Origin: Anaeromyxobacter paludicola
GTDB lineage: Bacteria; Myxococcota; Myxococcia; Myxococcales; Anaeromyxobacteraceae
Direction: 5' to 3'
Assembly (NCBI RefSeq): GCF_023169965.1
Contig: NZ_AP025592.1
Location: 3,348,001 to 3,412,000 of the forward strand
DNA: 64,000 nt
Part shown: one piece after another, positions 45,929 to 51,173 of the stretch
Layout: each line of letters starts with the position of its first letter
Numbering within the stretch: position 1 is the stretch's first letter
Notes under the pieces: generated by a model
What the model was told of the DNA's origin: nothing
Seen by the model: the letters and a program-made list of their open reading frames with translations, nothing else
Database searches by the model: none
Position numbers and translations under genes: made by a program

Positions 45929-46195
45929 TCACGGCGCCTTGTCGTCGAAGAGCTCGAGGTGCTGCAGGAGCTCGAGCTGCCGGATCTCCTCGAGGTGCCG
46001 GAGCAGCTCCGGGTCGGGCTCGGGCGGCCTCCGATCGCGCTCCCGCTCGCGCGCGGCGGGGGGCGTCCCGCCGTCCGGCCGCTCCGGCGCGCCCGCGTCC
46101 GGGCGGTCCCGGGGCGGCGGCACGTCGGCGCGCGCGGGGCCGGCGAGGAGCGCCACGGCGGCTCCGCTCGCGAGCGCCGCGCGGAGCCGGCTCAC
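45929..46195 (-). CDS. Small secreted protein with Leu-rich helical tail
   Basis: The 88-residue protein has a signal peptide (cut near ARA-DV, residue 24). A Pro/Asp/Arg-rich linker follows, and the C-terminal helix is DPELLRHLEEIRQLELLQHL. I recognise no family. The GTG start overlaps the stop of the outer-membrane protein gene by four bases (GTGA). It is the last gene of the ECF-sigma operon. The amphipathic leucine-rich tail suggests oligomerisation or binding to a partner. Confidence 0.65.
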   Translation of the reverse strand: MSRLRAALASGAAVALLAGPARADVPPPRDRPDAGAPERPDGGTPPAARERERDRRPPEPDPELLRHLEEIRQLELLQHLELFDDKAP

Positions 46196-47829
46196 CACCG
46201 CGGCACCACGTCCACGCCCAGCACCACCTTCGTCACCGGCGAGCCGCCCCCGAAGAAGTCGCCCGGCACGAGCACGTCCCCCTCCGCCGCGAAGGTGAGC
46301 CACTCGAGCGGCGACCAGGTGAGCTCCAGGTCCACCTCCGGCCCGTAGTCCTGCCCGCCGTAGGGCCCCGCCTGCGGGGCGAGGAGCCAGGCCGCGCGCG
46401 CGTCCACGCCGAAGTGGACGCTCGGGTCCCAGGTGACGTTCACGCCCGGGGCGACCACGCCGCGCCCGTTCACGCCCGGCGCGGTGGCCTGCCGCGCCGC
46501 GAAGCTCTCGGAGACGCCGCCCTGGAAGAAGATGTTGGTGGCGGTGACGTAGGGAGAGACGCCCAGGAACCCGCCGTAGCGGTCGCCCTCGCCGAGCCGC
46601 GCCTTCTCCGCCGGCGGCACGTCGCCCGAGAGGAAGACGAAGAAGCCGCCCACGCCCACGTCGTGCCCCACGTCGCGCTTGTAGCGGAGCGAGACCAGCT
46701 GCCCGAGCACGCTCGCCTTCACCGTCGAGGGGATGTCGCCGCCGCCGCCGGCCGGGAGCTGGAGGGAGAGGCTCCCCGCCGCGATCGCCGCCGTCCACCC
46801 GAGGCGGCCGCCGCGGCCGGCCACGAGGTCGCCGCTGGTGCCGGCCCAGAAGAGCGTCGCGTCCCCCGTCGCCTGCCCGGCGACGATGCCCGCGAGCCGC
46901 TGCTGCTCCGCCGCGAACGCCGCGCTCCCCTCGGCGAGCGCCTGCAGCCGCAGCGCCGAGCTCTCCACGTTGGCCCCGCGGAAGAGCTCCGCCACGTTCC
47001 CGCCCCGGTCGCGGAAGACCGCGGCGAACACCCCCGCGTGCTCGAAGAGCGACGGCAGCCAGTCGGCCCGGAGCACCAGCAGGGGCGAGAACGGGTCGAG
47101 CCAGGGGAGGTCGCGCCCCGGCTGGATGGCCGCGAGGCCCACGTCGAAGCTGGGGCCGATGGCGCCGAGGTCGAGGTCCGCCTCCACCCCCGTCGCCCAG
47201 TCGTCGAAGACGAAGCCGTCCGCCACCGTGAAGCGGCGCCGCCCGGCGCGGACGGTGGCGAAGCCGGCGCGGCCGAAGCTCGCGCTCACCCAGGCCTCGC
47301 GCAGGAAGCCGGTCCGGCTCGCCTCGTCGCCCACCGGCCGACCGTTCGCGGTCACCACCCCCGGCGAGAGGCGCGTCTCCGGCAGCGGCACCACCGGGTC
47401 GAGCACGCCGGTGCGCCGCCGGTTCACCACCACGACGCAGCGGCCGCTCCCGACCACGTCGAGCCCGGTGGGCGAGCTCGGGGTGAGGCAGACCGGCGCG
47501 GTGGCCGGGAAGGACTGGGCGCGCAGCTCCCCGGTGTCGAGGAGGAGGCCGAAGCGGACCGCGTCGCCGAGCCGGCCGTCCACCCCGGCGGCGGCGTAGG
47601 CCGAGCCCCACTGCTGCGAGTCCACCGGCCGCAGGTAATCCTTCACCTGCAGGGTCCGCAGCGCGCGGGCGTAGAGGACGTCCTGGAGCGGCGCGTTCTC
47701 CCGGTCGGTGAAGCGGCCGTGCAGCACGAGCCGCGGCACGAGCTCGAGGCCGGCGTCGTCGGCGCGCGCGCCCGCGGCGAGCGCGAGCGCGGTGAGCGCG
47801 GCGAGGAGCGGTCGCGGCGGGAGCGTCAC
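46192..47829 (-). CDS. Outer-membrane beta-barrel-like protein, unknown function
   Basis: The 545-residue protein has a signal peptide (cut near ARA-DD, residue 23), long alternating beta-strand sequence (for example VRAGRRRFTVADGF and VSLRYKRDVGHDVGVGGFF) and a C-terminal aromatic strand ending VPRW. This pattern suggests a barrel resembling alginate-export or porin-like proteins, but I cannot name a family. It has no lipobox. It lies 32 bases after the DUF3106 gene and is coupled to the small secreted protein. Confidence 0.7.
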   Translation of the reverse strand: MTLPPRPLLAALTALALAAGARADDAGLELVPRLVLHGRFTDRENAPLQDVLYARALRTLQVKDYLRPVDSQQWGSAYAAAGVDGRLGDAVRFGLLLDTGELRAQSFPATAPVCLTPSSPTGLDVVGSGRCVVVVNRRRTGVLDPVVPLPETRLSPGVVTANGRPVGDEASRTGFLREAWVSASFGRAGFATVRAGRRRFTVADGFVFDDWATGVEADLDLGAIGPSFDVGLAAIQPGRDLPWLDPFSPLLVLRADWLPSLFEHAGVFAAVFRDRGGNVAELFRGANVESSALRLQALAEGSAAFAAEQQRLAGIVAGQATGDATLFWAGTSGDLVAGRGGRLGWTAAIAAGSLSLQLPAGGGGDIPSTVKASVLGQLVSLRYKRDVGHDVGVGGFFVFLSGDVPPAEKARLGEGDRYGGFLGVSPYVTATNIFFQGGVSESFAARQATAPGVNGRGVVAPGVNVTWDPSVHFGVDARAAWLLAPQAGPYGGQDYGPEVDLELTWSPLEWLTFAAEGDVLVPGDFFGGGSPVTKVVLGVDVVPRW

Positions 47830-47861
47830 GGGCGCAGTCTAGACCCGGCCGGCCCCGCGGG

Positions 47862-48356
47862 TCAGCGGCGCCGCGCGCCCCGGAGCTGGCGCCACTGCTC
47901 CCGCGCCTGCTGCCGCTCCGACGGGGACATGTCGCGCCAGCGGCGCAGGTTGTCGAGGTAGCGCTGCCGCTCGCGGGGCGACGCTTGGATGAGCTCCCGG
48001 AAGGCCTGCCGGAGCTGGGCGCGCCGCTCGGGCGACATCTCCTCGAAGCGCGAGAACCGGTCGAGGATCTCCCGCCGCTCCGACGGAGAGAGCTTCTGGA
48101 AGGCCTCGTAGTTCTTCTGGATGTCGGCGCGGCGCTCCGGCGGGAGCTGGTGCAGGCGCTCGAGCTTCTCGCGCAGGCCGGCCTTCTGCTCGGGGCTGAG
48201 CTTCTTCCAGCGCTCGAAGTCCTCCTGCGCCTGCTGCTTCTGCTCGGGCGTGAGCGCGTCCCAGGCCGCGCGGGCGCCGGCCGGCGGGTCCTCGGCGCGG
48301 GCGGCGGCCGGGAGCGAGAGGGCGAGGGCCAGCGCGAGGGCGAGCCGGCGCGTCAC
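47862..48356 (-). CDS. DUF3106 periplasmic helical-repeat protein
   Basis: The 164-residue protein has a signal peptide (cut near ARA-ED, residue 22) and about six tandem helical units of 20-25 residues. Each carries a motif like LSPEQKAGLREKLERLHQLPPERR, split over several units, as in DUF3106. These highly charged helices recall periplasmic stress proteins of the CpxP/Spy type, but no function is established. The start GTG overlaps the anti-sigma stop by four bases. Confidence 0.85.
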   Translation of the reverse strand: MTRRLALALALALSLPAAARAEDPPAGARAAWDALTPEQKQQAQEDFERWKKLSPEQKAGLREKLERLHQLPPERRADIQKNYEAFQKLSPSERREILDRFSRFEEMSPERRAQLRQAFRELIQASPRERQRYLDNLRRWRDMSPSERQQAREQWRQLRGARRR

Positions 48357-48832
48357 GGGCGCCTCCCGGCCGGCAGCTCGTCGAGGTGGCCGACCACCTC
48401 CACGTCCTCCGGCTCCTGCACGGCGTCGAGCCCGGCCACGAGCTCGTAGTCCTGGTAGAGGTCGAGGCCGCGCGCGAGCCGGTTCTGCTCGGCCCGGTAG
48501 TTGGCGACGGTGCCGATGACGAAGGCGAGCGTGAGCGCGCCGCCGGCGATGGGCACGAGGTTGCGCCAGCGCGCGCGCCGGAAGACGTCGAGGAGCCCGG
48601 GGCGCGGCGAGGGCTCGGCGTCGAGGCGGGCGTAGAAGGCGCGGGCGAAGCCGGGGGACGGCGGCGGCGGCGCGGGGAGCGCCGCGAGGAGCCGGAGCGC
48701 CCCCTCGAGCCGCTCCTTCTCGGCGCGGCACGCGGCGCAGGCCGCGAGGTGCGCCTCGACCTCCCGGACCCGCTCCGCGGGGAGCGCCCGGTCGAGGTAG
48801 GCGGTCAGCTCCTCGTCGAGGTGAGCGGTCAC
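48353..48832 (-). CDS. Zinc-finger anti-sigma factor
   Basis: The 159-residue protein has an N-terminal ZAS/zf-HC2 domain (HLDEELTAYLD, then EAHLAACAACRAEKERL with the HxxxCxxC set). A single membrane helix (LVPIAGGALTLAFVIGTVAN, about 92-111) and a 45-residue periplasmic tail follow. It should hold the adjacent ECF sigma factor at the membrane. It overlaps the sigma gene by four bases, the usual arrangement. Confidence 0.88.
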   Translation of the reverse strand: MTAHLDEELTAYLDRALPAERVREVEAHLAACAACRAEKERLEGALRLLAALPAPPPPSPGFARAFYARLDAEPSPRPGLLDVFRRARWRNLVPIAGGALTLAFVIGTVANYRAEQNRLARGLDLYQDYELVAGLDAVQEPEDVEVVGHLDELPAGRRP

Positions 48833-49425
48833 GGGCGGACCTCCTTCTCGGGGCCGGACCAGGGCGCGAGCGCCTCGGCGGCGGCGACGGTGGCGCGGTG
48901 CAGGAGCGACTTCACGGCGGAGACGCTGGTCTCGAGCACCTCGGCGATCTCCTCGTAGGAGAGCCCCTCGAGCCGGCAGAGCACGAACGCCGCCCGCTGC
49001 TTCTCGGGGAGGCGCGCCAGCAGCCCCTCGACGGCGCCCGCGAGCGCCTGGCCCATGGCCGCTTCCTCCGGGGTGGTCGCGCCGCCGGGGAGCGCGTCGA
49101 GGTCGGCCGGCTCGGACGGGACGCCGTCGGCGCGGGCCGGCTCGCGGGCGGCGTACTCGCCGCGGCGCAGCTCGTTCAGGCAGTGGTTGGAGGCGATGCG
49201 GTAGAGCCAGGTCTTGAAGCGGGCCGTCGGCTGGTAGCGGGCGGCCGAGCGGTGGACCTTGAGGAACACGTCCTGCGCCAGCTCCTCGGCCCGGGCGTCG
49301 TCCTTCACGTAGTGGTGGCAGAAGCGGACCATGGCGCGCCCGTGGCGATCGAACAGCGTCCGGAACGCCCGCTCGTCGCCGCCCTGGAAGGCCAGCATCA
49401 GCGCGGCATCGGGGTCCGAGGCCAT
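48829..49425 (-). CDS. ECF (group 4) RNA polymerase sigma factor
   Basis: The 198-residue protein has region 2 (FRTLFDRHGRAMVRFCHHYV, ELAQDVFLKVHRSAARY, FKTWLYRIASNHCLNELRR) and region 4 (LARLPEKQRAAFVLCRLEGL, SYEEIAEVLETSVSAVKSLLHRA). It would direct transcription of the envelope operon it heads. GAGGA lies before the ATG. The frame continues upstream, but only this part is coding. Confidence 0.92.
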   Translation of the reverse strand: MASDPDAALMLAFQGGDERAFRTLFDRHGRAMVRFCHHYVKDDARAEELAQDVFLKVHRSAARYQPTARFKTWLYRIASNHCLNELRRGEYAAREPARADGVPSEPADLDALPGGATTPEEAAMGQALAGAVEGLLARLPEKQRAAFVLCRLEGLSYEEIAEVLETSVSAVKSLLHRATVAAAEALAPWSGPEKEVRP

Positions 49426-49478
49426 CCGGCTTCCTCTAACACGGGGGACCGCGCCGGGTTGCGCCGGCGCGGGGCGGC

Positions 49479-50510
49479 TCAGTGGATCGCGGCGACCACC
49501 CGGAGGGCGTGCAGCGCCTCGTACGCCAGGAAGGCGACGGTGGCCGAGGCCGGGATGGTGAGCACCCAGGCCCAGATGATGCGACCGGCCACGCCCCAGC
49601 GCACCGCGCGGGTGCCGCGGGTGGCGCCCACGCCGACGATGGCGCCGGTGATGGTGTGGGTGGTCGAGACCGGGATGCCGAGGTGGGCCAGGGCGAGGAT
49701 GGTCACGCCCCCGCCGGTCTCCGCGCAGAAGCCGTGCACCGGCTGGAGCTTGGTGAGGCTGTGCCCCATGGTGCGGACGATGCGCCACCCGCCGAAGAAG
49801 GTGCCGAGGGCGATCGAGGCGTGGCAGAGGATCACCACCCAGAACGGGACCCCGAACGGCCGGTCCTTCCAGATGGTGCCGAAGAGGACCACCGAGATGA
49901 TGCCCATCACCTTCTGCGCGTCGTTGGTGCCGTGGCTGAAGGAGAAGATGCCCGCCGAGACGAGCTGCAGCCGGCGGAACCACCGGTCCACCTTGGCGCC
50001 GCTGGCCTTGCGGAAGATCCAGGCCACCACGAGCATGTTGAAGGTGCCGAGGACCATGCCGATGACCGGCGACAGCACGATGAAGGCGACGATCTTGCCG
50101 ATGCCGGAGGGCACGAGCCCGCCCGGCCCGAGGGCCGGCAGGGTGGCGCCGATCATGCCGCCCGCGAGCGCGTGGGACGAGGAGGACGGGAGCCCCCACC
50201 ACCAGGTGAGCAGGTTCCAGACGATGGCGCCCAGGAGCGACGCGAAGATCACCGACAGCACCGTCTCGACGCCCTGGGACTTGAGCGCGTCGAAGTGGAT
50301 GATCCCCTTCCCCATGGTGTTGGCGACGCTCAGGCTGCCGAAGAAGGCCGCGATGAAGTTGAAGAAGGCGGCCCAGAAGACGGCGTAGAGCGGCGCCAGC
50401 ACCCGCGTCGAGACCACCGTCGCGATGGAGTTGGCCGCGTCGTGGAAGCCGTTGATGAAGTCGAAGACGAGCGCGACGGCGATGAGCCCGATGACGATGG
50501 CGAGGAGCAT
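49479..50510 (-). CDS. pit: PiT-family inorganic phosphate transporter
   Basis: This 343-residue membrane protein has the PiT family repeats FDFINGFHDAANSIATVVSTRVL at the N-terminus and FSFSHGTNDAQKVMGIISV in the second half. It imports phosphate, usually as a metal-phosphate complex, with protons or sodium. The DUF47 gene 39 bases upstream on the same strand is its usual partner. Confidence 0.95.
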   Translation of the reverse strand: MLLAIVIGLIAVALVFDFINGFHDAANSIATVVSTRVLAPLYAVFWAAFFNFIAAFFGSLSVANTMGKGIIHFDALKSQGVETVLSVIFASLLGAIVWNLLTWWWGLPSSSSHALAGGMIGATLPALGPGGLVPSGIGKIVAFIVLSPVIGMVLGTFNMLVVAWIFRKASGAKVDRWFRRLQLVSAGIFSFSHGTNDAQKVMGIISVVLFGTIWKDRPFGVPFWVVILCHASIALGTFFGGWRIVRTMGHSLTKLQPVHGFCAETGGGVTILALAHLGIPVSTTHTITGAIVGVGATRGTRAVRWGVAGRIIWAWVLTIPASATVAFLAYEALHALRVVAAIH

Positions 50511-50549
50511 GTCTGGCTGGGGTCTCCGGGGGCCTGGCGCCGGCGGGCG

Positions 50550-51173
50550 CTAGGCGTGCTCCAGCACCACGCCCTCGATCACGTTGGCGACGTCCTCGGC
50601 CCGGTCGGTGGCGCTCTCGATGAGGTCGAGGATCTCCTTCCACTTCATGACCGTCAGCGGGTCGGAGCCGCTCTTGAAGAGCCGGGCGATGGCCACGCGC
50701 AGCAGGGTGTCCGCCTGGTTCTCGCAGACGTTCACCTCCTTGCAGGCCTCGAGCACCGCCGGGTCGCGCACGTTGCGCAGCCCGCGCACGGCCTCCTGCA
50801 TCCGCTGGGCGGCGGCGAGGAGCACGCCGGCGAGCTCGCGGGCCTCCGGGATCACCGGGCCGACGTCGTAGAGCCCGAGCCGCTCGCTGGCGGCGTCGGT
50901 CAGGTCGAGCACGTCGTCGATGCGCGACAGCAGCCGGTGGATCTCGGCGCGGTCGAAGGGCGTGATGAAGTGGGTGTGCAGCCGCTCGAAGGCGCGGTGG
51001 GTGATGTCGTCCGCGCGGTGCTCGACGTCCTTGATCGCCTGGCACTTCGCTTCGATGTGGGTGAAGTCGTCGAGCAGGTCCTTGAAGAGCCGCGCCCCCT
51101 CCACCGTGGCGGCTGCCTGCTTCTCGAAGTCGTCGAAGAACTCGTCCGACCTCGGCATCAATTTCTCGAGCAC
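50550..51173 (-). CDS. DUF47 (PhoU-like) phosphate transport accessory protein
   Basis: The 207-residue all-helical protein has the DUF47/TIGR00153 pattern: PRSDEFFDDFEKQAAATVEGA, IEAKCQAIKDVEHRADDITH, FDRAEIHRLLSRIDDVLDLTD and KWKEILDLIESATDRAEDVANV. It resembles PhoU and is thought to control the PiT carrier. It leads the DUF47-pit pair. Confidence 0.93.
   Translation of the reverse strand: MLEKLMPRSDEFFDDFEKQAAATVEGARLFKDLLDDFTHIEAKCQAIKDVEHRADDITHRAFERLHTHFITPFDRAEIHRLLSRIDDVLDLTDAASERLGLYDVGPVIPEARELAGVLLAAAQRMQEAVRGLRNVRDPAVLEACKEVNVCENQADTLLRVAIARLFKSGSDPLTVMKWKEILDLIESATDRAEDVANVIEGVVLEHA

Follow-up and report, generated by a model that had tools for sequence, protein, structure and literature searches.

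Gene organization of the locus

The window analysed here is a stretch of 64,000 nucleotides from Anaeromyxobacter paludicola (contig NZ_AP025592.1, positions 3,348,001 to 3,412,000), whose genome is complete at 4.59 Mb. Five genes on its minus strand, at window positions 45929-49425, encode an extracytoplasmic function (ECF) sigma factor, a zinc-finger anti-sigma factor, a DUF3106 protein, an outer-membrane barrel, and an 88-residue secreted protein. An earlier note on this DNA had described them as an operon in which three of the four junctions overlap by four bases and the last three products carry signal peptides, and this description holds. Gene calling by codon usage, with training on the window together with fetched relatives, recovers all five. 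The 4-base overlaps lie at 48829-48832 (sigma/anti-sigma), 48353-48356 (anti-sigma/DUF3106), and 46192-46195 (barrel/small protein), and the fourth junction, between DUF3106 and the barrel, is a gap of 32 bases. Hydrophobic leaders closed by A-x-A-like sites were read by eye in DUF3106 (..AARA/ED), the barrel (..GARA/DD), and the small protein (..PARA/DV). No RNA family was found in the operon with Rfam. The features are as follows.

49438..49462, minus strand: predicted ECF-type promoter GCAACCCGGCGCGGTCCCCCGTGTT, -35 GCAAC, -10 CGTGTT, 12 bases 5' of the sigma start codon
48829..49425, minus strand: ECF sigma factor, 198 aa (Pfam Sigma70_r2 3.5e-18, Sigma70_r4_2 5.8e-20; NCBIfam sigma70-ECF 1.5e-30)
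48353..48832, minus strand: zf-HC2 anti-sigma factor, 159 aa, one predicted transmembrane segment, HxxxCxxC at H28/C32/C35 (Pfam zf-HC2 1.4e-8)
48497-48559, minus strand: predicted transmembrane segment of the anti-sigma factor
48356..48502, minus strand: periplasmic tail of the anti-sigma factor, acidic and Leu-rich, residues 111-159, net charge -6 (sequence reading)
48374..48409, minus strand: anti-sigma tail motif EDVEVVGHLDEL, common to the small protein
47862..48356, minus strand: DUF3106 protein, 164 aa, signal peptide, seven-helix repeat, mature charge +10 (Pfam 3.9e-25; AlphaFold2)
46192..47829, minus strand: outer-membrane beta-barrel, 545 aa, predicted AlgE/OprD-like fold (AlphaFold2 model and fold comparison)
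45929..46195, minus strand: small secreted protein, 88 aa, with signal peptide, variable linker, and conserved acidic Leu-rich C-terminus
45932..46018, minus strand: tail-mimic segment PDPELLRHLEEIRQLELLQHLELFDDKAP of the small protein, with motif PDPELLRHLEEI at 45983-46018

The sigma protein has regions 2 and 4 and no region 3, and the adjacent anti-sigma factor carries an HxxxCxxC motif whose residues H28, C32, and C35 are invariant among 18 relatives. By these sequence features the pair is assigned to the ECF sigma factors with a zinc-finger (ZAS) anti-sigma factor.

A shared tail in the anti-sigma factor and the small protein

All genomes searched belong to the phylum Myxococcota; their families are numbered with the prefix f, and f1 is the family of the window. 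In the small proteins a signal peptide is followed by a linker that varies and then by a conserved stretch, for example EDxEVVENLELLESLD..DLELLLEL; the periplasmic tails of the anti-sigma factors read similarly, for example EVAANLELVEDYEVLGLDSSEDLEVVENLHEL. Averaged over 47 loci holding both tails, the best ungapped 12-residue BLOSUM score was 32.5, compared to 20.7 with the anti-sigma tail shuffled (standard deviation of set means 0.44) and 21.9 with it reversed; because the 47 loci share ancestry, such set-level spreads overstate the significance. The true order scored above the reversed order in 45 of the 47 loci, and single loci in several families gave tail matches with p 0.002-0.02. Profile-profile comparison of the two tails yielded E 8e-7 (reversed, 0.17). 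Moreover, a profile built from anti-sigma tails only was searched against 679 proteins taken from the loci and the window. It matched 62 anti-sigma proteins and 23 of the roughly 50 small proteins, and the nine matches filed as 'other' consist of eight anti-sigma proteins and the small protein L007_2. The reversed profile gave zero matches among the same proteins.

Each tail is a short acidic segment rich in Leu, and low-complexity sequence inflates alignment scores, so the resemblance could in principle be no more than the similar composition of helices rich in Leu and Glu. This is highly improbable, however, as the shuffled and reversed controls of the same composition fail and no unrelated protein was matched among the 679. 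The resemblance of the conserved C-terminus of the small protein to the periplasmic tail of the anti-sigma factor can be regarded as solid, as judged from the sequences.

The average charges are -11.2 for anti-sigma tails, -8.8 for small-protein tails, and +14.0 for mature DUF3106. Since both tails are acidic, mutual repulsion is to be expected, and one basic partner would suit them both.

Distribution and gene order in Myxococcota

DUF3106 was present in 97 of the 195 genomes of the search set, and some 60 loci, drawn from 13 families, were inspected. Among 60 near relatives the barrel was found in 10, all of f1, and in each of these it stands directly after DUF3106. The small gene follows the barrel in f1 wherever the contig is long enough, with a poorly resolved reading frame in L078. 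The order in f1 is sigma-anti-DUF3106-barrel-small. The order is sigma-anti-DUF3106-small in f4 and f9, with no barrel; anti-DUF3106-small in f7, where sigma is not adjacent; barrel-sigma-anti-small-DUF3106 in f11, and identical in f17 as far as the contigs reach; sigma-anti-small-DUF3106 in f19; and barrel-small-sigma-anti-DUF3106 in f26 and f31. It can be seen that all five parts occur together in three different orders (f1; f11; f26/f31), well beyond the window's own family, and that the Myxococcus-like branch keeps the other four parts and is missing the barrel. Such recurrence in differing gene orders would be difficult to account for without a function in common.

With a 16-member barrel profile, strong matches were obtained in 24 genomes. 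Rather than being unlinked to the sigma gene throughout the relatives, the barrel lies inside the sigma cluster in 20 of the 24. The nearest named relatives of the barrel come from Anaeromyxobacter and Myxococcales metagenome genomes, and a barrel search on plasmids found none. Most genomes of genus g3, Anaeromyxobacter-like members of the window's own family, have no barrel and no DUF3106. In the remaining four of the 24 genomes, the barrel relatives are more divergent and do not adjoin a sigma module: L146 (G165), L147 (G075), L149 (G166), and L150 (G167); no DUF3106 match is listed for G165.

In f7, the loci L099, L100, L101, and L103 encode proteins with a transmembrane segment and a tail and without the HxxxCxxC sigma-binding motif. 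They stand beside DUF3106, with the small gene next and no adjacent sigma. That tail protein, DUF3106, and small protein stay together after sigma is gone points to an interaction of just these three, and they look like a physical unit.

Promoter and regulon

The promoter was found by enumerating spaced words upstream of sigma in 58 regions. The word GCAAC-N16-GGTT occurred in 23 of them and related forms in more, compared to at most 6 regions for any word in shuffles. The degenerate form G[CA][AG]AC-N16-[GT]GTT stands upstream of sigma at 10/10 f1, 21/25 f4, 4/4 f11, and 2/2 f31 loci, as well as at single f2, f9, and f28 loci; its rate in shuffled regions is 0.5%. It is also found upstream of the barrel in three lineages (L132, L135, L142).

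In the whole genome that holds the window, the exact f1 form has 2 copies, one before sigma and one before a DUF4382 lipoprotein gene. The latter (G000:C1:3048106-3048130, L241) lies 24 bases before a gene of 383 aa and recurs likewise in the sister genome G001 (L242). A second lipoprotein family (L253, G000:C1:2948183-2949382, minus strand) has a sigma-type promoter upstream in G000, G001, G004, and G015. The site in G000 is of the -10 GGGTT form, and in G004 the site is 66 bases upstream and the gene adjoins the sigma operon. In 12 f4 genomes there are 29 exact promoter sites, all intergenic by the gene caller, with 0 in the reversed-pattern control. Those not before sigma stand mostly ahead of lipoprotein or exported-protein genes, among whose products are EF-hand lipoproteins and small, charged proteins of helical type. 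The placement of one promoter type ahead of sigma and of lipoprotein and exported-protein genes indicates an autoregulated envelope regulon, and by its sequence the sigma gene has the mark of autoregulation through an ECF-type promoter. These findings bear out the earlier proposal of a linked envelope-sensing system, with linkage conserved in several orders, a shared autoregulatory promoter, and a regulon of exported proteins. The description of the system as self-contained is not supported, as the same promoter type is found elsewhere in the genome.

Two scans were less informative. A genome scan allowing one mismatch (75 sites, 24 in the control) was too noisy to name further targets. Exact matches are also seen in the genus g3 genomes, most of which lack the operon, but the majority fall within genes, and single exact matches there are background. 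Separately, lipoproteins with EF-hand repeats lie behind the sigma promoter at L212, L234, and L237 in f4, L212 by Pfam and the other two by resemblance. This hints at a calcium or envelope ion link.

Such a regulon could also be read as output only. DUF3106, the small protein, and the barrel would then be a periplasmic chaperone pair and a porin made along with the sigma factor, and the shared tail a DUF3106 docking tag with no role in sensing. The three genes do lie in an autoregulated operon, and the remainder of the regulon is made up of lipoproteins and charged, exported proteins. However, the tag is also on the anti-sigma factor, so any tag binder would meet the anti-sigma tail, and this explanation seems rather unlikely.

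The DUF3106 protein and the barrel

The DUF3106 protein scores 88.8 bits, well above the Pfam cut-off of 24.3 (PF11304), and its AlphaFold2 model has seven helices with a mean predicted local distance difference test score (pLDDT) of 84. The last repeat is best conserved, with R130, N136, R139, W140, R148, and R152 invariant, and is a candidate binding site. A fold search against solved structures gave nothing above Z 6 and no convincing relative, and a sequence search of solved structures gave chance helical matches only; that a family is missing from such listings is no evidence against it. No paper naming DUF3106 was found in the literature library searched. The earlier likening of this protein to Spy/CpxP finds weak support in sequence. 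The window protein stays below the Pfam cut-off, with no LTXXQ or Metal_resist match, and among 16 relatives 5 show a weak match to Metal_resist (best 1.2e-5). Metal_resist is presumably the family to which CnrX is linked. No operon protein matches the MucB_RseB family in Pfam or NCBIfam.

Neither the barrel nor the small protein has any match in Pfam and NCBIfam, as the earlier note had remarked in saying that they match no family. Each of them nevertheless forms a conserved family across Myxococcota, and the barrel takes on a predicted fold of a known type. Its AlphaFold2 model (mean pLDDT 78) aligns with AlgE 5d5d over 359 residues (VIA Z 28.4, root-mean-square deviation 3.5, 12% identity), and OprD-type porins are next best with Z about 25. 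By this model comparison the barrel has an AlgE/OprD-like fold. A sequence search of solved structures found no barrel relative, and Pfam Alginate_exp reached 3 of ten barrels, below cut-off, with a best E of 0.053.

The barrel might act as a receptor, passing on the binding of an outside substrate to the anti-sigma tail in the way that FecA signals to FecR. Barrel and sigma recur together in differing gene orders, which is in keeping with such a role. Nonetheless, in contrast to FecA, no TonB plug or signalling domain was found in ten barrels with Pfam (Plug, TonB_dep_Rec, STN), and in f4 the four other genes are retained although there is no clear barrel relative. Signalling of this type is quite improbable.

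Proposed mechanism

The regulon, the gene module, and the tail similarity are all seen in the sequences, and together they suggest an autoregulated envelope-response ECF sigma system in which two tails would compete for DUF3106. We hold this reading tentatively, at a little short of an even chance. The anti-sigma factor would keep sigma at the inner membrane and expose its own tail to the periplasm, where the basic helical DUF3106 would bind the tail and set whether the anti-sigma factor stays intact. DUF3106 may either protect it, as RseB does, or destabilise it, the sequence being compatible with both. The small protein, as a soluble look-alike of the tail, would compete with the anti-sigma factor for DUF3106 and, along with the AlgE-like barrel where present, tie this competition to the outer membrane. 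A change in the outer membrane would shift DUF3106 between the tails, upon which sigma would be released and the operon and its lipoproteins induced. More tentatively still, this may be a phylum-wide manner of sigma control, in which the state of the outer membrane is reported by a secreted peptide that carries a copy of the anti-sigma sensor tail and competes for DUF3106 as a periplasmic adaptor. The earlier suggestion of signalling from the secreted proteins to the anti-sigma tail now has a concrete footing in the similar tail of the small protein; the signalling itself we only infer.

Several observations weigh against competition of the tails. The place of DUF3106 as common partner would follow from gene order, charge, and co-occurrence, and the promoter assignments are sequence matches only. 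In the window itself, EDVEVVGHLDEL and PDPELLRHLEEI make a modest match (p 0.036 against shuffles), and the window small protein is not matched individually by the anti-sigma-tail profile. Within families, tails of the same genome are no closer than tails of relatives (p 0.41-0.79 in three families), with f1 as a weak exception (p 0.014). No small gene was found at the f2 and f15 loci. The absence of any clear barrel relative in f4 means that the barrel is not an obligatory part, and in G075, G165, G166, and G167 the barrel is unlinked to the sigma module. As for co-evolution of the two tails, it was considered and is not claimed, being unsupported inside families except weakly in f1.

Both tails could alternatively be ligands of a PDZ site-1 protease or of the barrel. 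The small protein would then activate or block cleavage of the anti-sigma factor, with DUF3106 as a bystander chaperone. In Pseudomonas aeruginosa, the small periplasmic protein MucE activates the PDZ protease AlgW by its C-terminal peptide, within the AlgU/MucA/MucB/AlgW/MucE system (PMC8545111). The small protein here is likewise exported, its C-terminal region is conserved, and its gene adjoins the barrel gene in f1, f26, and f31. Its C-termini vary, however (KAP, KAR, QED, VER, RQP ...). The conserved motif stops short of the C-terminus, being followed by variable residues, and the aromatic or hydrophobic tripeptide of MucE or outer-membrane proteins is absent, so by this feature the protein is not of MucE type. 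Also, DUF3106 remains beside tail-bearing proteins even without sigma or barrel. This alternative is judged unlikely.

Comparison of the proposed tail competition with known systems places it, on the best reading by analogy, near RseA/RseB in logic, with different parts; its nearest precedents would be RseB and CnrX (PMC4598750, PMC8103513) and MucE (PMC8545111). The AlgU/MucA/MucB/MucE system has an ECF sigma factor, a membrane anti-sigma factor, a periplasmic partner (MucB), and a small periplasmic protein feeding anti-sigma control (PMC8545111), and AlgE, whose predicted fold is shared here, is an alginate exporter. In contrast to MucE, the small protein here resembles the anti-sigma tail and is encoded inside the sigma operon, and DUF3106 differs from MucB/RseB in having no match to their family. 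The barrel differs from AlgE/OprD-type barrels in its low identity to AlgE and in being encoded with a sigma module. SigmaE/RseA/RseB of Escherichia coli likewise has an envelope regulon (PMC8103513, PMC4598750). RseB, however, belongs to a different protein family, and the operon described here has a short-tailed anti-sigma factor of the zf-HC2 type. We know of no tail look-alike peptide in the SigmaE/RseA/RseB system. CnrH/CnrY/CnrX of Cupriavidus metallidurans is alike in its ECF sigma factor, anti-sigma factor, and periplasmic sensor switching the anti-sigma factor (PMC4598750); DUF3106, by comparison with CnrX, has a signal peptide rather than a shown anchor, and the barrel and the tail look-alike are extra.

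These results give DUF3106, a family of unknown function in half of the sampled Myxococcota, a context that bears on function. They also predict an envelope regulon, so far unrecognised, that has a clear promoter and is present in Myxococcus-like genomes, where it is open to genetics. If tail competition is true, it would be a new coupling of anti-sigma factor to envelope, with a soluble copy of a sensor tail as messenger.

Neighbouring genes

Directly 5' of sigma on the same strand, at window 49479-51173, are two genes separated from it by a 54-base gap, which we take to encode a PiT-like phosphate transporter and a DUF47-like protein. The pair is kept beside the operon in most genomes of the window's own family and is absent there in L074 (G004). 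Transcription from these two genes may possibly read through into the sigma operon.

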